Source: Candidatus Zhuqueibacterota bacterium
GTDB taxonomy: Bacteria; Zhuqueibacterota; Zhuqueibacteria; Oceanimicrobiales; Oceanimicrobiaceae
DNA: 64,000 nt
Direction of reading: 5' to 3'
Assembly (NCBI GenBank): GCA_029262055.1
Contig: JAJDAD010000062.1
Coordinates: 1-64,000, forward strand
The notes under the pieces were generated by a model. The model was not told where the DNA came from and did no database searches. It saw only the letters and a program-made list of their open reading frames with translations. Made by a program: the position numbers and the translations under genes. Shown piece by piece: positions 55,483-61,520 of this stretch. The number at the start of each line of letters is the position of its first letter. Position 1 is the first letter of the stretch.

Positions 55483-55980
55483 ATGATGGATCTAGTAGCT
55501 GGAGGATTAATTGGTGCCGTTTTTAGCATCCTATTGACACTAGGATGGGCTTGGCTTGTTCAATTAAGAACTCCAGTTGAGTTGTATCGTACGTGGTATT
55601 CAACATGGCAACCCACATCGCTTAGGGACTGGAGTTGGGTTACTGAAAAAGTCACAATTAAAAAGGGCCTTATGGGTATTCGACTTTCTAGTTCGGAGAA
55701 TTCTGCCGGGCATCGGTGGCAGGGGCATGGAAAACTCGTTGGGAACACATATTTGATTGGCGAGTGGCGTTCTGTTCTTCCCGGGTCTAATGCGGAAGGA
55801 GTTTTCGCTCTCACAATGACAGTGGAGGGAAACGGAATGATTGGGTATTTTTTTACGCGCGATTTAGATCGGAAGAAGGTTGCAAGTGGATTCGTCCTTG
55901 GCAGGTCAGAAGGGGAAATGATCGAAGCCAAAAAGAAGTTGATCGCTTCGCGTGTAAGGTTTCCGAAAGATGTCGCCTAA
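55483..55980 (+). CDS. Small protein with N-terminal TM helix and beta-rich C-terminal domain
   Basis: 165 aa: LVAGGLIGAVFSILLTLGWAWLVQL TM, then WYSTWQPTSLRDWSWVTEKVTIKKGLMGIRLSSSENSAGHRWQGHGKLVGNTYLIGEWRSVLPGSNAEGVFALTMTVEGNGMIGYFFTRD. Confidence 0.75.
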   Translation: MMDLVAGGLIGAVFSILLTLGWAWLVQLRTPVELYRTWYSTWQPTSLRDWSWVTEKVTIKKGLMGIRLSSSENSAGHRWQGHGKLVGNTYLIGEWRSVLPGSNAEGVFALTMTVEGNGMIGYFFTRDLDRKKVASGFVLGRSEGEMIEAKKKLIASRVRFPKDVA

Positions 55981-55993
55981 CGAGGAAAGGCAA

Positions 55994-56836
55994 ATGAAAC
56001 TTCGTACATATATGTTCTTGATCGTTTTTACGACTGTCACGGTGTATCTACTAATCTATTGGCAAAAACGCCTTGAGATAAACGATACTCTTGTTGTTTA
56101 CTTTGGTCGCCCATCAGATATTTGGTCTTATGTTACGCAACATTGGTCACAAATTCTTGAAGGTTCCATACTTAGCACCGGGGTCGCCCTTGTATCTCTT
56201 CTTATTTCTGCAGGACTGGCAGTCATCTTTCTTGTGCTTGGTCTTTCCTCAGAAGGATGGCTTCGAAGTGTCGAGCGATTCGCAGCCATATCGCAGACCA
56301 TTCCTATACTGGTAATTGTAACAATCTCATTCATAGTGGAGAAAAGCTTGTTGAAGAAGTTTGGCTTGGACTTGGGACTTGCTTGGTATTGTTTCATACC
56401 TGTCAGCATTGCCCTCTTTTTCCCACCTCTAGTCTATGGAATCAAGGGCGTTCGAGATATTGATTCGAATATGAAAGCTCTGCTCAGAATCTGGGATGCA
56501 CCTCAATCCTGGCGTATTAAGAGAATCTACCTACCTCAAGTCCTACCTCATATTCTAACAGGTTTACGTGTTAGTTCCACTTGGGCAGTTGTTGCGACAT
56601 TAATAACCGAGGGCCTCATATACGGAGTCGGTGGTAATCAGTATTCGATTGGCAAAGGCTTGATGAGACCTTTCTCTGGATCGTTGGTTGCTGGACAAAC
56701 CCCAACATTAGTAGTTGTTGCAACGTTACTAGGCTTTTTAGTTTACTATATTGTTGGGGGTGTTCAGGTCTTAGTCCAAAAGAAGGTGTTTGGTTTAGCG
56801 GTTGAACAGGAAAAGAACTATCCAATCACAGGTTAA
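55994..56836 (+). CDS. ABC transporter permease (NitT/TauT, SsuC/TauC-like)
   Basis: Multiple TMs; RIWDAPQSWRIKRIYLPQVLPHILTGLRVSSTWAVVATLITEGLI (EAA-loop like); GAGGAAAGG RBS before ATG 55994; ORF track start 55970. Confidence 0.87.
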   Translation: MKLRTYMFLIVFTTVTVYLLIYWQKRLEINDTLVVYFGRPSDIWSYVTQHWSQILEGSILSTGVALVSLLISAGLAVIFLVLGLSSEGWLRSVERFAAISQTIPILVIVTISFIVEKSLLKKFGLDLGLAWYCFIPVSIALFFPPLVYGIKGVRDIDSNMKALLRIWDAPQSWRIKRIYLPQVLPHILTGLRVSSTWAVVATLITEGLIYGVGGNQYSIGKGLMRPFSGSLVAGQTPTLVVVATLLGFLVYYIVGGVQVLVQKKVFGLAVEQEKNYPITG

Positions 56837-56886
56837 TTGGTGAATATTCGACGTAAAATAGGCCTGACAACTAAGGAGATCGTATC

Positions 56887-57885
56887 ATGAACGTACTTTC
56901 CGCTACCATGAAACTCGCGGTTTTTAGTTTCATGTTAAGCTCTTGGACTCTAAACTGTTCTGACTCAGTTGAGACCCTTGTTCTGCAAAGAGAATGGACA
57001 GCCAATGCTGAATATGCTGGAGATATTTGGGCCTCTAAACTTGCGAGAGAAAAGGGATTCCATCTTGTAGTCCATGAAGGCTCAGAATTGCTTGATCCCG
57101 TCCGCTTGGTCAGATCTGGTGATGTACAGTTCGGGGTTGCTAGCGCAGACAGGATCCTTCAAGAAAATGAGGGAGGTGCCCGACTAGTCATAATAGCATC
57201 CGCAACCTTCAAAACACCCGTAGTATTCCTATCAAAGAAAGGATCGGGTATCAAAACTCCTCAAGACTTCATCAATAAGATAGTTGGAATTCAGGCTGGC
57301 ACCAATACAGAACTCGTGTTCAAGGCACTTGTTAGTGCAACCAATATTATTGAAGAAGAAAGAATTAGGGTTGTTGAATCAGGATGGGGTATTCAAACAT
57401 TTGTAAATGGTGATATTGATGTACTTGGAGCATTTGACTACGATGAACCCGTACAACTAGAGTTCCGAGGCATAGAATACAATGTTATTTCTCCTGAAGA
57501 CTATGGTGTGGATTATGTAGGTACAGTTTATTTCACTCGGGAAGATTTCATTGATAACAACCCTCGAGTTGTCCAAGATGTTTTGAACTGTCTTGTCCTA
57601 GGATGGCATCGGGCCTTACAAAACCCTGAAAAAGCTCTAAATCTGCTCGTCGAATACAGCTCCGAGATTAATGCGGATAAGGAAAAGCGATCACTTATGC
57701 GAGGTAAGGAATACTTTCAAGGTGAAAATCAATGGCCCCTATATTCTTCAGATGATAGGTGGGAATCTATGTCCAGAAGTCTTATGAGCTTGGGTCGCTT
57801 AAGAACGTTTGACTACAGAAACAACATAGATTACAGCTATTTACAAATAGCTCTTGCCGAATTAAAGAAAAATTATGATGATTAG
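56887..57885 (+). CDS. ABC transporter substrate-binding protein (NMT1/THI5-like)
   Basis: Signal/lipobox-like MLSSWTLNCSDS; REWTANAEYAGDIWASKLAREKGFHLVVHEG...VQFGVASADRIL...GSGIKTPQDFINKIVGIQAGTNTE; AAGGAG RBS. Confidence 0.85.
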   Translation: MNVLSATMKLAVFSFMLSSWTLNCSDSVETLVLQREWTANAEYAGDIWASKLAREKGFHLVVHEGSELLDPVRLVRSGDVQFGVASADRILQENEGGARLVIIASATFKTPVVFLSKKGSGIKTPQDFINKIVGIQAGTNTELVFKALVSATNIIEEERIRVVESGWGIQTFVNGDIDVLGAFDYDEPVQLEFRGIEYNVISPEDYGVDYVGTVYFTREDFIDNNPRVVQDVLNCLVLGWHRALQNPEKALNLLVEYSSEINADKEKRSLMRGKEYFQGENQWPLYSSDDRWESMSRSLMSLGRLRTFDYRNNIDYSYLQIALAELKKNYDD

Positions 57886-58660
57886 ATCATTGAAAAACCG
57901 AAATGCCTACCGAAAGAGGTCTCGACTCTGCTGGAGCAAAAACTCGACCTATTGGCTTTCCAATCCTCTTCGTCATGTAGTCGACGTTGGTGATTATATT
58001 GCTGACACGGTGATTAGGATTTGCTCTCGGTCCCGTAGCTCAAAGCCAACAATTGTGGATATGGGATTTGGCAGTGCGTGGCTATACCAAGCTCTCAGCC
58101 GAAAAGGATTCTCATGCTACTATATTGGCTTTGACTCAAACGAAGATTTCATTAATTATTCTCTACAGCAATTCGCCACTGATAAGTCATGCAGATTTGA
58201 TTTGGTCGACTTGGAAGAACCCATCGATGTTAACATTCGAGCTGATTTGGTGGTTAGTGCGTTTTCACTTTTCGAACTTTCGGATCTTCGACAGCCAATG
58301 ACCAACGCATTTAATCTTTTGTTGCCCAATGGTCATTTCCTAATTTCAACCATCGACCCTACCTATCTTATTCTTGCTGTCAGTGATTCATGGCCAGAAT
58401 TCCTTGAGAATCTGGCCAGATATGAGACACTCCCAGGAACCAAATACGCGTTCCAGCCAATTGACCTTGGCGACAAGGCTTCAAATACATTGGAATATCC
58501 CAGTGTTCTTTATTCTCGATATGATTATCTTTCCATCTCAAGAAATGTTGGATTCCACTTTGGTTCTTATAAAGAACATATTCTCACTGCCAAACCAATA
58601 CCTAAAATCTATTTTCATCTAGAGTTGGTCAAAGGAGCCAACCATGCTTCTTCGACCTAG
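57875..58660 (+). CDS. Class I SAM-dependent methyltransferase
   Basis: TIVDMGFGSAWLYQALSRKGFSCYYIGFDSNEDFINYS, RADLVVSAFSLFELSDL, LLLPNGHFLISTIDPTYL; start overlaps the SBP stop. Confidence 0.82.
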   Translation: MMIRSLKNRNAYRKRSRLCWSKNSTYWLSNPLRHVVDVGDYIADTVIRICSRSRSSKPTIVDMGFGSAWLYQALSRKGFSCYYIGFDSNEDFINYSLQQFATDKSCRFDLVDLEEPIDVNIRADLVVSAFSLFELSDLRQPMTNAFNLLLPNGHFLISTIDPTYLILAVSDSWPEFLENLARYETLPGTKYAFQPIDLGDKASNTLEYPSVLYSRYDYLSISRNVGFHFGSYKEHILTAKPIPKIYFHLELVKGANHASST

Positions 58661-59666
58661 AGATATAGAACATTCATCTTTTTCCCAAATAGTATCTTTT
58701 ATCGCCTCACTGGTCACTGTTGTGAGCATTGCAGTTTCTGCTTTCTTCTACCTTAAAGACAGGCCAGCCAGAGCAAGGGATACTGTGTATGCGGCATGGC
58801 AAATCGTAGCTAACATGGAAGGGAAGAAGGGAAGCGGAGGAAGGGAAGCAGCGATTGCTCAATTGCGTGATCATGACGAAGATCTCACAGGCATTGCTTT
58901 AGATTCAGGCTTCCTAAATGGTGTAGATTTGTCTCACGCCGATTTGTTGAAGTCTTCTTTCATTTATTCGAGCCTTTCGAACAGCACGTTTAATCATTCT
59001 CGCCTTTCGTTCGCCAGTTTCCGTGGCGCTAGGCTGCACAAGGCTCAGTTCATAAATACATCGTTGGATTCTGTCGATTTTTATGCTGCCACGATTACAG
59101 ATGCCAATTTCAACCAAGGGGAAATGGTTCGATGTGTTGGAGACTCAATCACAACTTTCAATGGCTCGACATTTAATAAGGTGAAGATAACCTACTCTGA
59201 ATTCCAAAATGCTAATTTTGATAATACACTTTTTGAGAACAGTCATTTTGTTGAGGTTGTCTTAACTGGTTCACGAATGCGTCGCAGTAGGCTGAATGAT
59301 TCGGTTTGGAGACATGTTGAGGCGCCTTCTGTCGACCTGCTACTTTCTGAGGCAACTAATATCTACATAGGTGCATGGAGTAACCTGAGAGGTTCACGTT
59401 TCGACCGCGCGATTTTGCACTCCGCTAAATTTGAACAAGCAATCTTATCCAAAGCAAGCTTTTTCAATTCAGACCTCTCTAAGGCTGAATTTGTTGATTC
59501 AGATCTAAGTTTTGCTGATTTTTCATCTTCTATTCTAAAAAATGTTGAAATCACCAGGTGCAACATTGAGAGTACGCTCTTTTCTGGTGCTGACCAAACG
59601 GGTCTCACTGTAATGGGTTGCTATGGTAAACCAATAGACCTACGTGTTGGCTACGAGCTGAAATGA
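58644..59666 (+). CDS. TM-anchored pentapeptide-repeat protein
   Basis: TM near N-terminus (IVSFIASLVTVVSIAVSAFFYL), AAWQIVANMEGKKGSGGREAAIAQL linker, then A(D/N)LxxS/F-type repeats (LDSGFLNGVDLSHADLLKSSFIYSSLSNSTFNHSRLSFASFRGARL); start overlaps MTase stop by 17 bp. Confidence 0.88.
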   Translation: MLLRPRDIEHSSFSQIVSFIASLVTVVSIAVSAFFYLKDRPARARDTVYAAWQIVANMEGKKGSGGREAAIAQLRDHDEDLTGIALDSGFLNGVDLSHADLLKSSFIYSSLSNSTFNHSRLSFASFRGARLHKAQFINTSLDSVDFYAATITDANFNQGEMVRCVGDSITTFNGSTFNKVKITYSEFQNANFDNTLFENSHFVEVVLTGSRMRRSRLNDSVWRHVEAPSVDLLLSEATNIYIGAWSNLRGSRFDRAILHSAKFEQAILSKASFFNSDLSKAEFVDSDLSFADFSSSILKNVEITRCNIESTLFSGADQTGLTVMGCYGKPIDLRVGYELK

Positions 59667-59729
59667 GTATTTATTTGGAGTAGCAAGTTGGCAGATCGTT
59701 GAATCGTTTTAGGAGTTGGATCATCAAAT

Positions 59730-60533
59730 TTGGATATGTCTATGACTAATATGATTGAAATACGCAACGTTACTTTCCGCTATCGGCGGGAAATAGAGCC
59801 GTCCCTTTGCAGCTTAAGTTGTGACATACAATGCGGTCAGATTGTAGCGATAATCGGGAAATCCGGTATAGGAAAGTCAACGCTCTTACGTCTTATTTCG
59901 GGTGTTTATAGAAAATTTGACAGCTGGAATGGTGAATACGAGGGCGAGATACGCATATTGGGGAGACAGCCTCAGGAACTTAAGGGACCTGAGCAAGTTT
60001 CTTTGATGACTCAAGACCCGTTTCTCCTTACTCACCTCTCTGTTAAGCAAAACATTCTTCTCCCTTGCCACCTCCTCTCTGAGGAGGCAACAAAAGAGGC
60101 GGACACCTACTACGGTGATCTTATTAATTGTCTTGGGCTTTCCGGTCAAGAAGATAAGAAGCCTATGGACCTCAGCGGCGGGATGAAAACTCGGGTAGCC
60201 TTCGCTAGAGCAATGATAAGCTGTCCCGCCTACCTATTTCTCGATGAACCATTTACGAGTCTTGACATAGTAAGACGTTGGGGTATGTACAAAGCCATTC
60301 GTAGGGCAAGATCATACGACAGATTTACCACTGTCCTGACAACGCATGATCTTTGGGAGGCCCTTGTCCTTGCAAATTGGATTCTTGTTTTGGATAAGAA
60401 AGATGGTATTAGTGATGTAGCTTATTATGAAAATCCACTACCAGAAATTGATGATTGCTCAATAACAGAATGTTTGCGGATTATCCAACCAAATATGGAA
60501 CATGTTTCTCAACTACTAGAAATGCGTGCATAG
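59730..60533 (+). CDS. ABC transporter ATP-binding protein (SsuB/TauB-like)
   Basis: Walker A GKSGIGKST, Q-loop MTQDPFLL, signature LSGGMKTRVAFARAM, Walker B AYLFLDEPF. Confidence 0.92.
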   Translation: MDMSMTNMIEIRNVTFRYRREIEPSLCSLSCDIQCGQIVAIIGKSGIGKSTLLRLISGVYRKFDSWNGEYEGEIRILGRQPQELKGPEQVSLMTQDPFLLTHLSVKQNILLPCHLLSEEATKEADTYYGDLINCLGLSGQEDKKPMDLSGGMKTRVAFARAMISCPAYLFLDEPFTSLDIVRRWGMYKAIRRARSYDRFTTVLTTHDLWEALVLANWILVLDKKDGISDVAYYENPLPEIDDCSITECLRIIQPNMEHVSQLLEMRA

Positions 60534-60578
60534 CACATGCACCTAATCGGGTAAGCGGAGGGTTTCTCCATGCTCGGG

Positions 60579-60647
60579 AGGTGTGACAGCTCACCGTCAC
60601 ACCTTTGAGTAATCCCCCGCGGAACGATAGATAGGGATTGTATTCCC
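60579..60647. repeat. Palindromic intergenic repeat, copy 1
   Basis: Perfect 9-bp arms AGGTGTGAC (60579-60587)/GTCACACCT (60596-60604), then AATCCCCCGCGGAAC...ATAGGGATTGTATTCCC, matching copy 2. Confidence 0.75.
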
Positions 60648-60733
60648 AAACGGTTCGGAGTTGTTTAGAAATGCTTAGTTTGAGGGGGAATAAAATTCCC
60701 GGTTCATTGGCTCCGCAGGAGATATGATGCGCT

Positions 60734-60810
60734 CGCGGGGGATTTAACAGCTCACCGTCACGCCTTCTGATTAATCCCCCGCGGAACAAATGGATGGGGA
60801 TTGCATCCCC
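60734..60810. repeat. Palindromic intergenic repeat, copy 2
   Basis: Perfect 11-bp arms CGCGGGGGATT (60734-60744)/AATCCCCCGCG (60773-60783) around ACAGCTCACCGTCACGCC; then GGGGAT-TGC-ATCCCC at 60796-60810. Confidence 0.8.
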
Positions 60811-60978
60811 CTAAGAAGGTTCCAAATTTGGGTGGCACACGATAGCTTGGCACGGCACCCCTCGTTAGCTATACCCCACTATTGTAAGATTCCTTATAAG
60901 GACATCATTGATTTACAGTCATGATATTCGTAAATTAGTCCTTGAAAGTTATATATGAAAATACAGAGGCAATATGAT

Positions 60979-61266
60979 ATGCTTGTAAAGCCTATAGAAG
61001 TCAAAGCACTTGATGACTACAGAATCTGGCTAAAATATGCCGACGGTGTCGATGGAGAAGTAGATTTATCGAATTTAGCTGGCAAAGGCGTCTTTTCGAA
61101 ATGGAATAATTACTCAGAATTTCAGAAAGTCCACGTAGGCAGCCATGGAGCGATTACTTGGTGCGACGAAATCGACTTATGCCCCGACTCGATATATTTA
61201 AAACTAACTGGAAAAGCGCCACAAGATCTATTTCCCGCTCTACATCCAAAACCAATCGATGCCTGA
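60979..61266 (+). CDS. DUF2442 domain-containing protein
   Basis: MLVKPIEVKALDDYRIWLKYADGVDGEVDLSNLAGKGVFSKWNNYSEFQKVHVGSHGAITWCDEIDLCPDSIYLKLTG; ORF track start 60955. Confidence 0.85.
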   Translation: MLVKPIEVKALDDYRIWLKYADGVDGEVDLSNLAGKGVFSKWNNYSEFQKVHVGSHGAITWCDEIDLCPDSIYLKLTGKAPQDLFPALHPKPIDA

Positions 61267-61520
61267 GATAAGCCGATTCTATGGTATAGTCATCAAAATG
61301 TACTTTGGTGACCATGTCCCGCCTCATTTCCATGCGGGAATATGGAGAGCACGAAGCTTTGATAGATATAGACCTGCTTGCTGTATTTGCGGGGAAACTA
61401 CCACCCAGAGCCCTGGGTCTCGTGATGGAGTGGGTATCACTCCACCAGAGTGAGTTGCAGAAACTCTGGCATAAGGCGGCAAATCTGGAGCCGCTCGGCC
61501 ATGTTGCTCCATTGGAATAA
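61259..61520 (+). pseudogene. DUF4160 domain gene with a +1 frameshift
   Basis: MPEISRFYGIVIKMYFGDHVPPHFHA (frame of 61259) continues as EYGEHEALIDIDLLAVFAGKLPPRALGLVMEWVSLHQSELQKLW (frame of 61305); one extra G in GGG at 61336-61338 explains the break. Confidence 0.8.

Follow-up and report, generated by a model that had tools for sequence, protein, structure and literature searches.

The question raised by this locus is why the genes of an ABC importer should share one compact block with a methyltransferase gene and the genes of two membrane-anchored proteins, and what such a block might do. Within the window (the whole 64,000-nucleotide stretch analyzed here, from contig JAJDAD010000062.1), a complete NMT1/THI5-type ABC importer and a SAM methyltransferase are encoded in one operon-like cluster:

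55483..55980, + strand: TM-beta protein, 165 aa (ORF call; no Pfam family, no PADLOC match)
55994..56836, frame from 55970, + strand: ABC importer permease (BPD_transp_1; Pfam 5.7e-10)
56887..57885, + strand: substrate-binding protein (SBP), NMT1/THI5-like (Pfam NMT1 3.8e-34)
57875..58660, + strand: class I SAM-dependent methyltransferase (MTase; Pfam Methyltransf_23 9e-8)
58644..59666, + strand: TM-anchored pentapeptide-repeat protein (Pfam Pentapeptide_4 2e-27; hydropathy)
59730..60533, + strand: ABC importer ATPase (Pfam ABC_tran 1.3e-26)
60575..60787, no strand: paired direct repeats of 31 nt and 20 nt, just 3' of the operon (repeat search)

The six genes are co-directional and tightly packed, as the original prediction had it, and the two stop/start overlaps it named are exact: SBP and MTase share 11 bp (57875/57885), and MTase and TM-pentapeptide protein 17 bp (58644/58660). 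Its 14-bp gap at 55980/55994 needs correction to 13 bp. The permease frame already opens upstream of that point, with an ATG at 55970 and an overlap with the stop of TM-beta; the start at 55994 has GAGGAAAGG before it and is the likelier of the two. The ATPase frame starts with TTG at 59730, and ATG codons at 59736 or 59742 could serve instead. None of the six frames is interrupted, every protein except TM-beta has a recognized domain, and the cluster has a GC of 0.428 and a GC3 of 0.35–0.43, compared with a GC3 of 0.62 ± 0.045 in 34 other ORFs of the window. With its open frames, domains and sharply deviating composition, the cluster is a real signal, beyond chance. To judge from its sequence, the block is a horizontally acquired operon, foreign in composition, and its acquisition would be recent. 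The accessory character that had been predicted for the flanks is apparent on the 60.5–62 kb side alone (paired repeats, DUF2442, DUF4160); elsewhere the flanking genes are mostly ordinary.

The importer assignment follows from the SBP, permease and ATPase all scoring above their Pfam gathering cut-offs. The SBP has a likely signal/lipoprotein start (Cys24), and the ATPase carries a Walker A motif (GKSGIGKST), the signature LSGGM, LDEP and an H-loop. An earlier label of SsuABC/TauABC type holds broadly, but the solved structures nearest to the SBP are an unassigned SBP (4nmy) and ThiY (3ix1), both ahead of SsuA. The likeness to ThiXYZ, SsuABC and NMT1/THI5-type importers lies in three subunits with intact family domains and in an SBP homologous to ThiY and SsuA. 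Unlike in those systems, the MTase and pentapeptide genes here part the ATPase from the permease and SBP, and the cluster has no metabolic partner genes; no riboswitch was found upstream at E ≤ 1, and permease, SBP and ATPase all fall below the NCBIfam equivalog/subfamily cut-offs that would assign a substrate such as nitrate, sulfonate, taurine or a thiamine precursor. Residues following the ATPase signature (MKTR/MRTR/MKSR) might have marked the clade, but were discarded because the unrelated locus L045 has the same change.

Exact peptide patterns gave no close relatives, either in 85,462 genomes (permease) or in viral contigs (permease, MTase, TM-beta). Because natural alignments were too diverged for scanning, we made degenerate patterns from search-only alignments with artificial rows bearing conservative substitutions, and the SBP version found Kordia jejudonensis. 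There the genes of an NMT1/THI5-type SBP, a permease, an ATPase and a class I SAM MTase stand together in one operon in the order ATPase–permease–SBP–MTase, all four homologous to the window genes (identities of 38% over 295 aa for SBP, 34% for ATPase, 25% for permease and 23% for MTase); the MTase at this place is homologous to that of the window over 237 aa (68.9 bits). In a second Bacteroidia genome (G790, locus L147) the core runs ATPase–permease–MTase–SBP in overlapping genes, with a permease 27% identical to that of the window and ATPases, in Kordia and G790, at 34%–36%. A Flavobacteriaceae genome (G547) has the window's own core order, permease–SBP–MTase–ATPase, and a more distant SBP. 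The MTases of G790 and G547 show generic relatedness only to the window MTase. The SBPs of the window, Kordia, G790 and locus L059 form one clade (SH-aLRT 99), with which permease and ATPase similarities agree; at L059 core genes are missing, and a permease search of that genome returned a generic transporter.

At least three other genomes carry the four-gene core (SBP, permease, ATPase, MTase) as well, but the genes that accompany it differ at each locus. Because the MTase keeps company with the importer genes in Kordia, G790 and G547 too, its place among them is no accident of insertion, which bears out the view of an unusual arrangement with the MTase as part of the unit. The proposed check on co-occurrence of all six genes went the other way: we found no locus homologous to the whole set, TM-beta and TM-pentapeptide homologues turned up neither at the Kordia, G790 and G547 loci nor in 387 genomes (nor, for TM-beta, in 72,556 plasmids), and a conserved six-gene unit is unsupported. 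Scored against the SBP of Kordia, 11 loci reach 140 bits or more, and 7 of these have an MTase-motif gene next to their SBP; ordinary relatives, the 85 loci below that value, mostly lack one, with 2 exceptions (Fisher p 9e-7, for a cut-off chosen post hoc and a statistic that ignores kinship of loci). The core is patchily distributed among genomes. In a separate SBP clade a TM-anchored methyltransferase fusion comes next, and many relatives are plain ATPase–permease–SBP transporters near metabolic genes. The plasmid matches to the SBP that were inspected are metabolic transporters, and UbiG beside the SBP at L067 and L136 (2 of ~70 Desulfobacterales-type loci) was taken as coincidence.

The changing partners are of several kinds. 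The Kordia core is accompanied by a SLOG-like/kinase-like protein (604 aa) and a response regulator, in an island with integrases, a T4SS coupling protein, a relaxase and a KAP NTPase. G790 has SIR2 (PADLOC 5.7e-153) and HerA (1.9e-136) directly upstream of the core, a kinase-like protein in the operon and receiver proteins downstream, and G547 a histidine-kinase-like protein (HATPase 2.5e-5), a receiver (1.1e-7) and a channel-like protein. Within the SBP clade with the MTase fusion, ABC-3C CTD10 and DUF2326 genes lie upstream at L064, and type III restriction-modification genes follow at L040. The surroundings of the G547 locus and of the L040 type III genes are otherwise ordinary. The kinase-like label of the Kordia and G790 proteins comes from motifs picked out by eye; hhalign between the kinase-like regions gave no support, a PDB search with the G790 protein gave no match, and the AF2 model of the 604-aa Kordia protein was unusable. 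Kinase-like and receiver genes inside three operons recall two-component modules, from which the window cluster differs in having no adjoining kinase or receiver gene.

SIR2-HerA is a phage-resistance pair (PMC11514479). In G790 the pair (GAO_19) stands directly upstream of the same core, and no such ORF was recognized by sight among the listed ORFs of the window. SIR2-HerA functions alone elsewhere, we know of no need on its part for a transporter or a methyltransferase, and it may be a mere neighbor. Against PADLOC-listed systems the six window proteins match only a generic ATPase, a generic MTase and, weakly, one pentapeptide protein. The sensing or immunity module suggested originally is worth considering from the neighborhoods of the relatives, but no known defense gene lies beside the window cluster.

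By hydropathy the TM-beta protein has a single N-terminal TM helix, and in its AF2 single-sequence model (pLDDT 60) a helix at residues 2–29 is followed by some eight beta strands, with a further helix at the C-terminus; no PADLOC family matches at E ≤ 1. Cap15/2TM-beta effectors of CBASS and Panoptes combine a membrane anchor with a small beta-barrel (PMC12657230), a plan that the modeled TM-beta protein would share. As modeled, it would differ from them in having one TM helix rather than two; no nucleotide cyclase lies nearby, and Foldseek places the low-confidence model with lipocalin-like barrels (E 0.02). The TM-pentapeptide protein has a TM segment at residues ~16–35 and repeats at ~80–330. 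It scores far below the NCBIfam cut-offs for Hailong HalA (NF051894; 31.2 bits versus 250), Qnr (51 versus 240) and MfpA (33 versus 360), and its N-terminal TM segment sets it apart from Qnr and MfpA.

Our preferred reading, with a probability of about 0.4, is a rare, horizontally spread importer–methyltransferase cassette with exchangeable signaling and effector genes, a small-molecule-gated device used most likely in biological conflict. Such a device is suggested over an ordinary nutrient transporter because the core adjoins signaling, mobile-element and anti-phage genes in unrelated bacteria, and a conflict role is plausible on this genomic context. The SBP would capture a small molecule, perhaps a flat heteroaromatic, a guess made because its nearest characterized relatives, ThiY/THI5, bind thiamine-pyrimidine precursors. 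Permease and ATPase would import the molecule or report its binding, and the cytosolic MTase would modify it or a partner protein. The molecule's presence, absence or modification could then set the state of a locus-specific output: histidine-kinase-like/receiver proteins, SIR2-HerA or the channel-like protein in the relatives, and in the window two membrane-anchored proteins, the TM-pentapeptide protein and a TM-beta-barrel that would bind a ligand or form a pore. The opponent may be a phage, a mobile element or a competitor. Core conservation, the well-supported SBP clade and the conflict, mobile and signaling neighbors of the relatives count for the cassette, and its patchy spread and foreign composition fit an accessory module. 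Against it count the missing kinase, receiver or known defense gene in the window, TM-beta and TM-pentapeptide proteins without detected relatives in other loci, the few instances, the generic MTases of G790 and G547 and the kinase-like labels. The stronger proposal of an unrecognized class of conflict system is somewhat unlikely; importer and MTase would there form a sensory input (a molecule captured, imported, methylated, or its supply monitored) driving exchangeable outputs that include kinase–receiver relays, SIR2-HerA, ABC-3C, channels and, here, the membrane-anchored beta-barrel and pentapeptide proteins.

An SBP clearly of the NMT1/THI5 family, with ThiY and SsuA among its solved relatives, and the many plain transporters near metabolic genes would suit a specialized importer of a nutrient or cofactor precursor, with an MTase that methylates the substrate for metabolism and TM proteins that are accessory or unrelated. 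We hold this unlikely: the MTase is the sole metabolic enzyme in any core locus, the upstream region lacks a detectable riboswitch, the partners are signaling, SIR2-HerA and membrane proteins, and the context is mobile or foreign. Chance could also have brought a transporter–MTase pair and two unrelated membrane genes together in one acquired island, as the lack of conservation of the TM proteins with the core and the few instances of that core would allow. Overlapping frames that tie SBP, MTase and pentapeptide genes, an ATPase gene beyond the pentapeptide gene, a foreign composition common to all six and a core synteny that recurs across phyla make this a decidedly doubtful account. MTases often tailor or detoxify metabolites, the SBP fixes the direction of transport as import, and the island is horizontally acquired, all in keeping with uptake of, or self-protection from, a specialized metabolite or antibiotic that the MTase inactivates or shields against. 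This seems improbable, as biosynthetic genes are absent near the window cluster and its relatives, and the kinase/receiver and SIR2-HerA partners are left unexplained.

We found no description of the importer–methyltransferase–signaling combination in the open-access papers searched. If the conflict reading is true, the sensory parts of bacterial immune-like systems would include ABC importers of the nutrient type that work with periplasmic binding proteins, and the trigger could be a membrane-crossing small molecule, not a phage protein or nucleic acid. Even if the cassette does not serve defense, a binding-protein importer wired to an MTase and signaling genes is an unexplained recurring unit whose ligand is directly testable. 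Just outside the operon, the second copy of the paired direct repeats sits inside an inverted repeat.

A complete importer (substrate-binding protein [SBP], permease and ATPase) and a SAM methyltransferase (MTase) recur together as a core whose partners vary, and the cluster carrying this core in the window is foreign there in composition. The six co-directional ORFs described at 55483-60533 were recovered by ORF calling on the window; they encode, in order:

TM-beta protein, no Pfam domain
Permease, BPD_transp_1 (Pfam)
SBP, NMT1 (Pfam)
MTase, class I, Methyltransf_23/31/11 (Pfam)
TM-pentapeptide protein, pentapeptide domain (Pfam)
ATPase, ABC_tran (Pfam)

The MTase and SBP ORFs share 11 bp, the pentapeptide and MTase ORFs share 17 bp, and the remaining intergenic gaps are 13, 50 and 63 bp, a packing that suggests co-transcription. 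The cluster is AT-rich (GC 0.428 versus 0.528; GC3 0.35–0.43 versus 0.62 ± 0.045 in the 34 other window ORFs), and hence was probably acquired recently. Genes on its 5' side look ordinary, as judged by sight. The closest 3' features are paired direct repeats (31 nt at 84%, 20 nt at 95%) with an inverted repeat at 60575-60787, possibly an intergenic or mobile element remnant, and then, at 60955-61520, two neighbouring genes for small domains whose function is unknown, DUF2442 and DUF4160.

In 85,462 species genomes, a scan with degenerate patterns picked up 238 relatives of the SBP, of which 80 were kept; such whole-database scans are pattern-based and can miss members. By far the top relative is from Kordia jejudonensis (38%, 1e-68), where the order is ATPase-permease-SBP-MTase and each gene is homologous to its window counterpart (34%, 25%, 38% and 23% identity, respectively). 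The MTase homology spans 237 aa, extending past the SAM-binding motifs into the C-terminal part. Two mutually overlapping genes start 2 bp 3' of the Kordia MTase. The product of the first has 604 aa and an N-terminus that weakly resembles SLOG/LOG (Pfam 4e-4, under cut-off); that of the second is a receiver-domain protein (3.5e-7). The surrounding island holds two phage-type integrases, a type IV coupling protein, a MobA-like relaxase and a KAP NTPase; a SMEK-domain protein lies 3' of it (L144:11956-13458).

Sampling 351 genomes of the Kordia family added one locus (G547), with, in order, a HATPase protein, a receiver, a 229-aa membrane protein (2-TM channel-like by eye) and permease-SBP-MTase-ATPase, the window's own core order. 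A class-level sample of 198 genomes added G790 (Bacteroidia), whose genes run on a single strand with overlaps or short gaps (L147:1488-15657): SIR2 and HerA (PADLOC, 5.7e-153 and 1.9e-136), then ATPase, permease, MTase and SBP. Next come a 1001-aa protein whose motifs look kinase-like by eye and which has no Pfam match, one of 229 aa, and finally two long proteins, of which the first has a Pfam receiver domain and the second is receiver-like by eye. Samples of 45 genomes of G790's family, and of 98 from the phylum of L059 (a Bryobacterales SBP locus), returned the starting locus only. Among 387 relatives of the window's genome, only generic SBPs were found, and the divergent permease matched only itself at 1e-12. 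The core is patchily distributed, with few instances.

In the SBP tree, the window (on a long branch), Kordia, G790 and L059 form one clade (SH-aLRT 99), with G547 near it yet outside; the L059 contig is too short to judge. A separate clade comprises L040, L064 (Bacteroidales) and L073 (Opitutia), where ATPase-permease-SBP is followed by a ~600-aa protein that has a TM segment at its N-terminus, an unknown middle and, at its C-terminus, a class I MTase domain bearing a DLPF/Y motif (judged by eye and from weak Pfam matches). These proteins are mutually homologous (30–36%), and their genes lie directly 3' of an NMT1-type SBP at all three loci:

L040:6493-8439, TM-MTase gene
L064:5762-7552, TM-MTase gene
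L073:8820-10625, TM-MTase gene

Hence, NMT1-type importers appear to have become linked to MTases on at least two separate occasions. An ABC-3C-like conflict system (L064:271-3189; CTD10 9e-12, DUF2326 1e-31) lies directly 5' of the importer-MTase genes of L064, and type III restriction Mod/Res genes and an SDH-type protease lie near those of L040.

We suggest that the importer and MTase would serve as input and the locus-specific partners as outputs. A possible role in conflict is argued from what lies nearby: the SIR2-HerA pair, whose part in phage resistance is established (PMC11514479), together with ABC-3C, type III restriction-modification and mobile-element genes. The only candidate outputs in the window are its two membrane-anchored proteins. 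The predicted TM-beta architecture recalls effectors of the Cap15/2TM-beta kind, which act by collapsing the inner membrane (PMC12657230). The TM-beta sequence, however, does not place the protein among them, and the window locus is therefore assigned to no defence system. Searches found no TM-beta relatives; a single-sequence AF2 model of low confidence (pLDDT 60) shows a single TM helix with eight strands, and its Foldseek likeness to lipocalin-type barrels (E 0.02) is no more than suggestive. The pentapeptide protein carries a TM anchor and falls below the cut-off of every named pentapeptide family tested; its repeat domain should be cytosolic by the positive-inside rule (LKDRPARAR after the helix).

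The cluster may instead be a metabolic importer, a specialised-metabolite resistance unit or a chance assembly. The best solved matches of the SBP are an unassigned SBP (4nmy, 4.7e-15) and ThiY (3ix1, 5.7e-11), with SsuA after those; the MTase has only generic relatives in the PDB and no plasmid match at 1e-3. By a uniform motif criterion, an MTase adjoins 7 of the 11 loci whose SBP is Kordia-like (≥140 bits) versus 2 of the 85 others (p 9e-7); this is descriptive because the cut-off was picked post hoc and the sequences are related. In two Desulfobacteraceae, UbiG-like (and UbiE-like) genes lie directly 3' of an ABC NMT1 transporter (L067:6664-7371 and L136:6534-8170).
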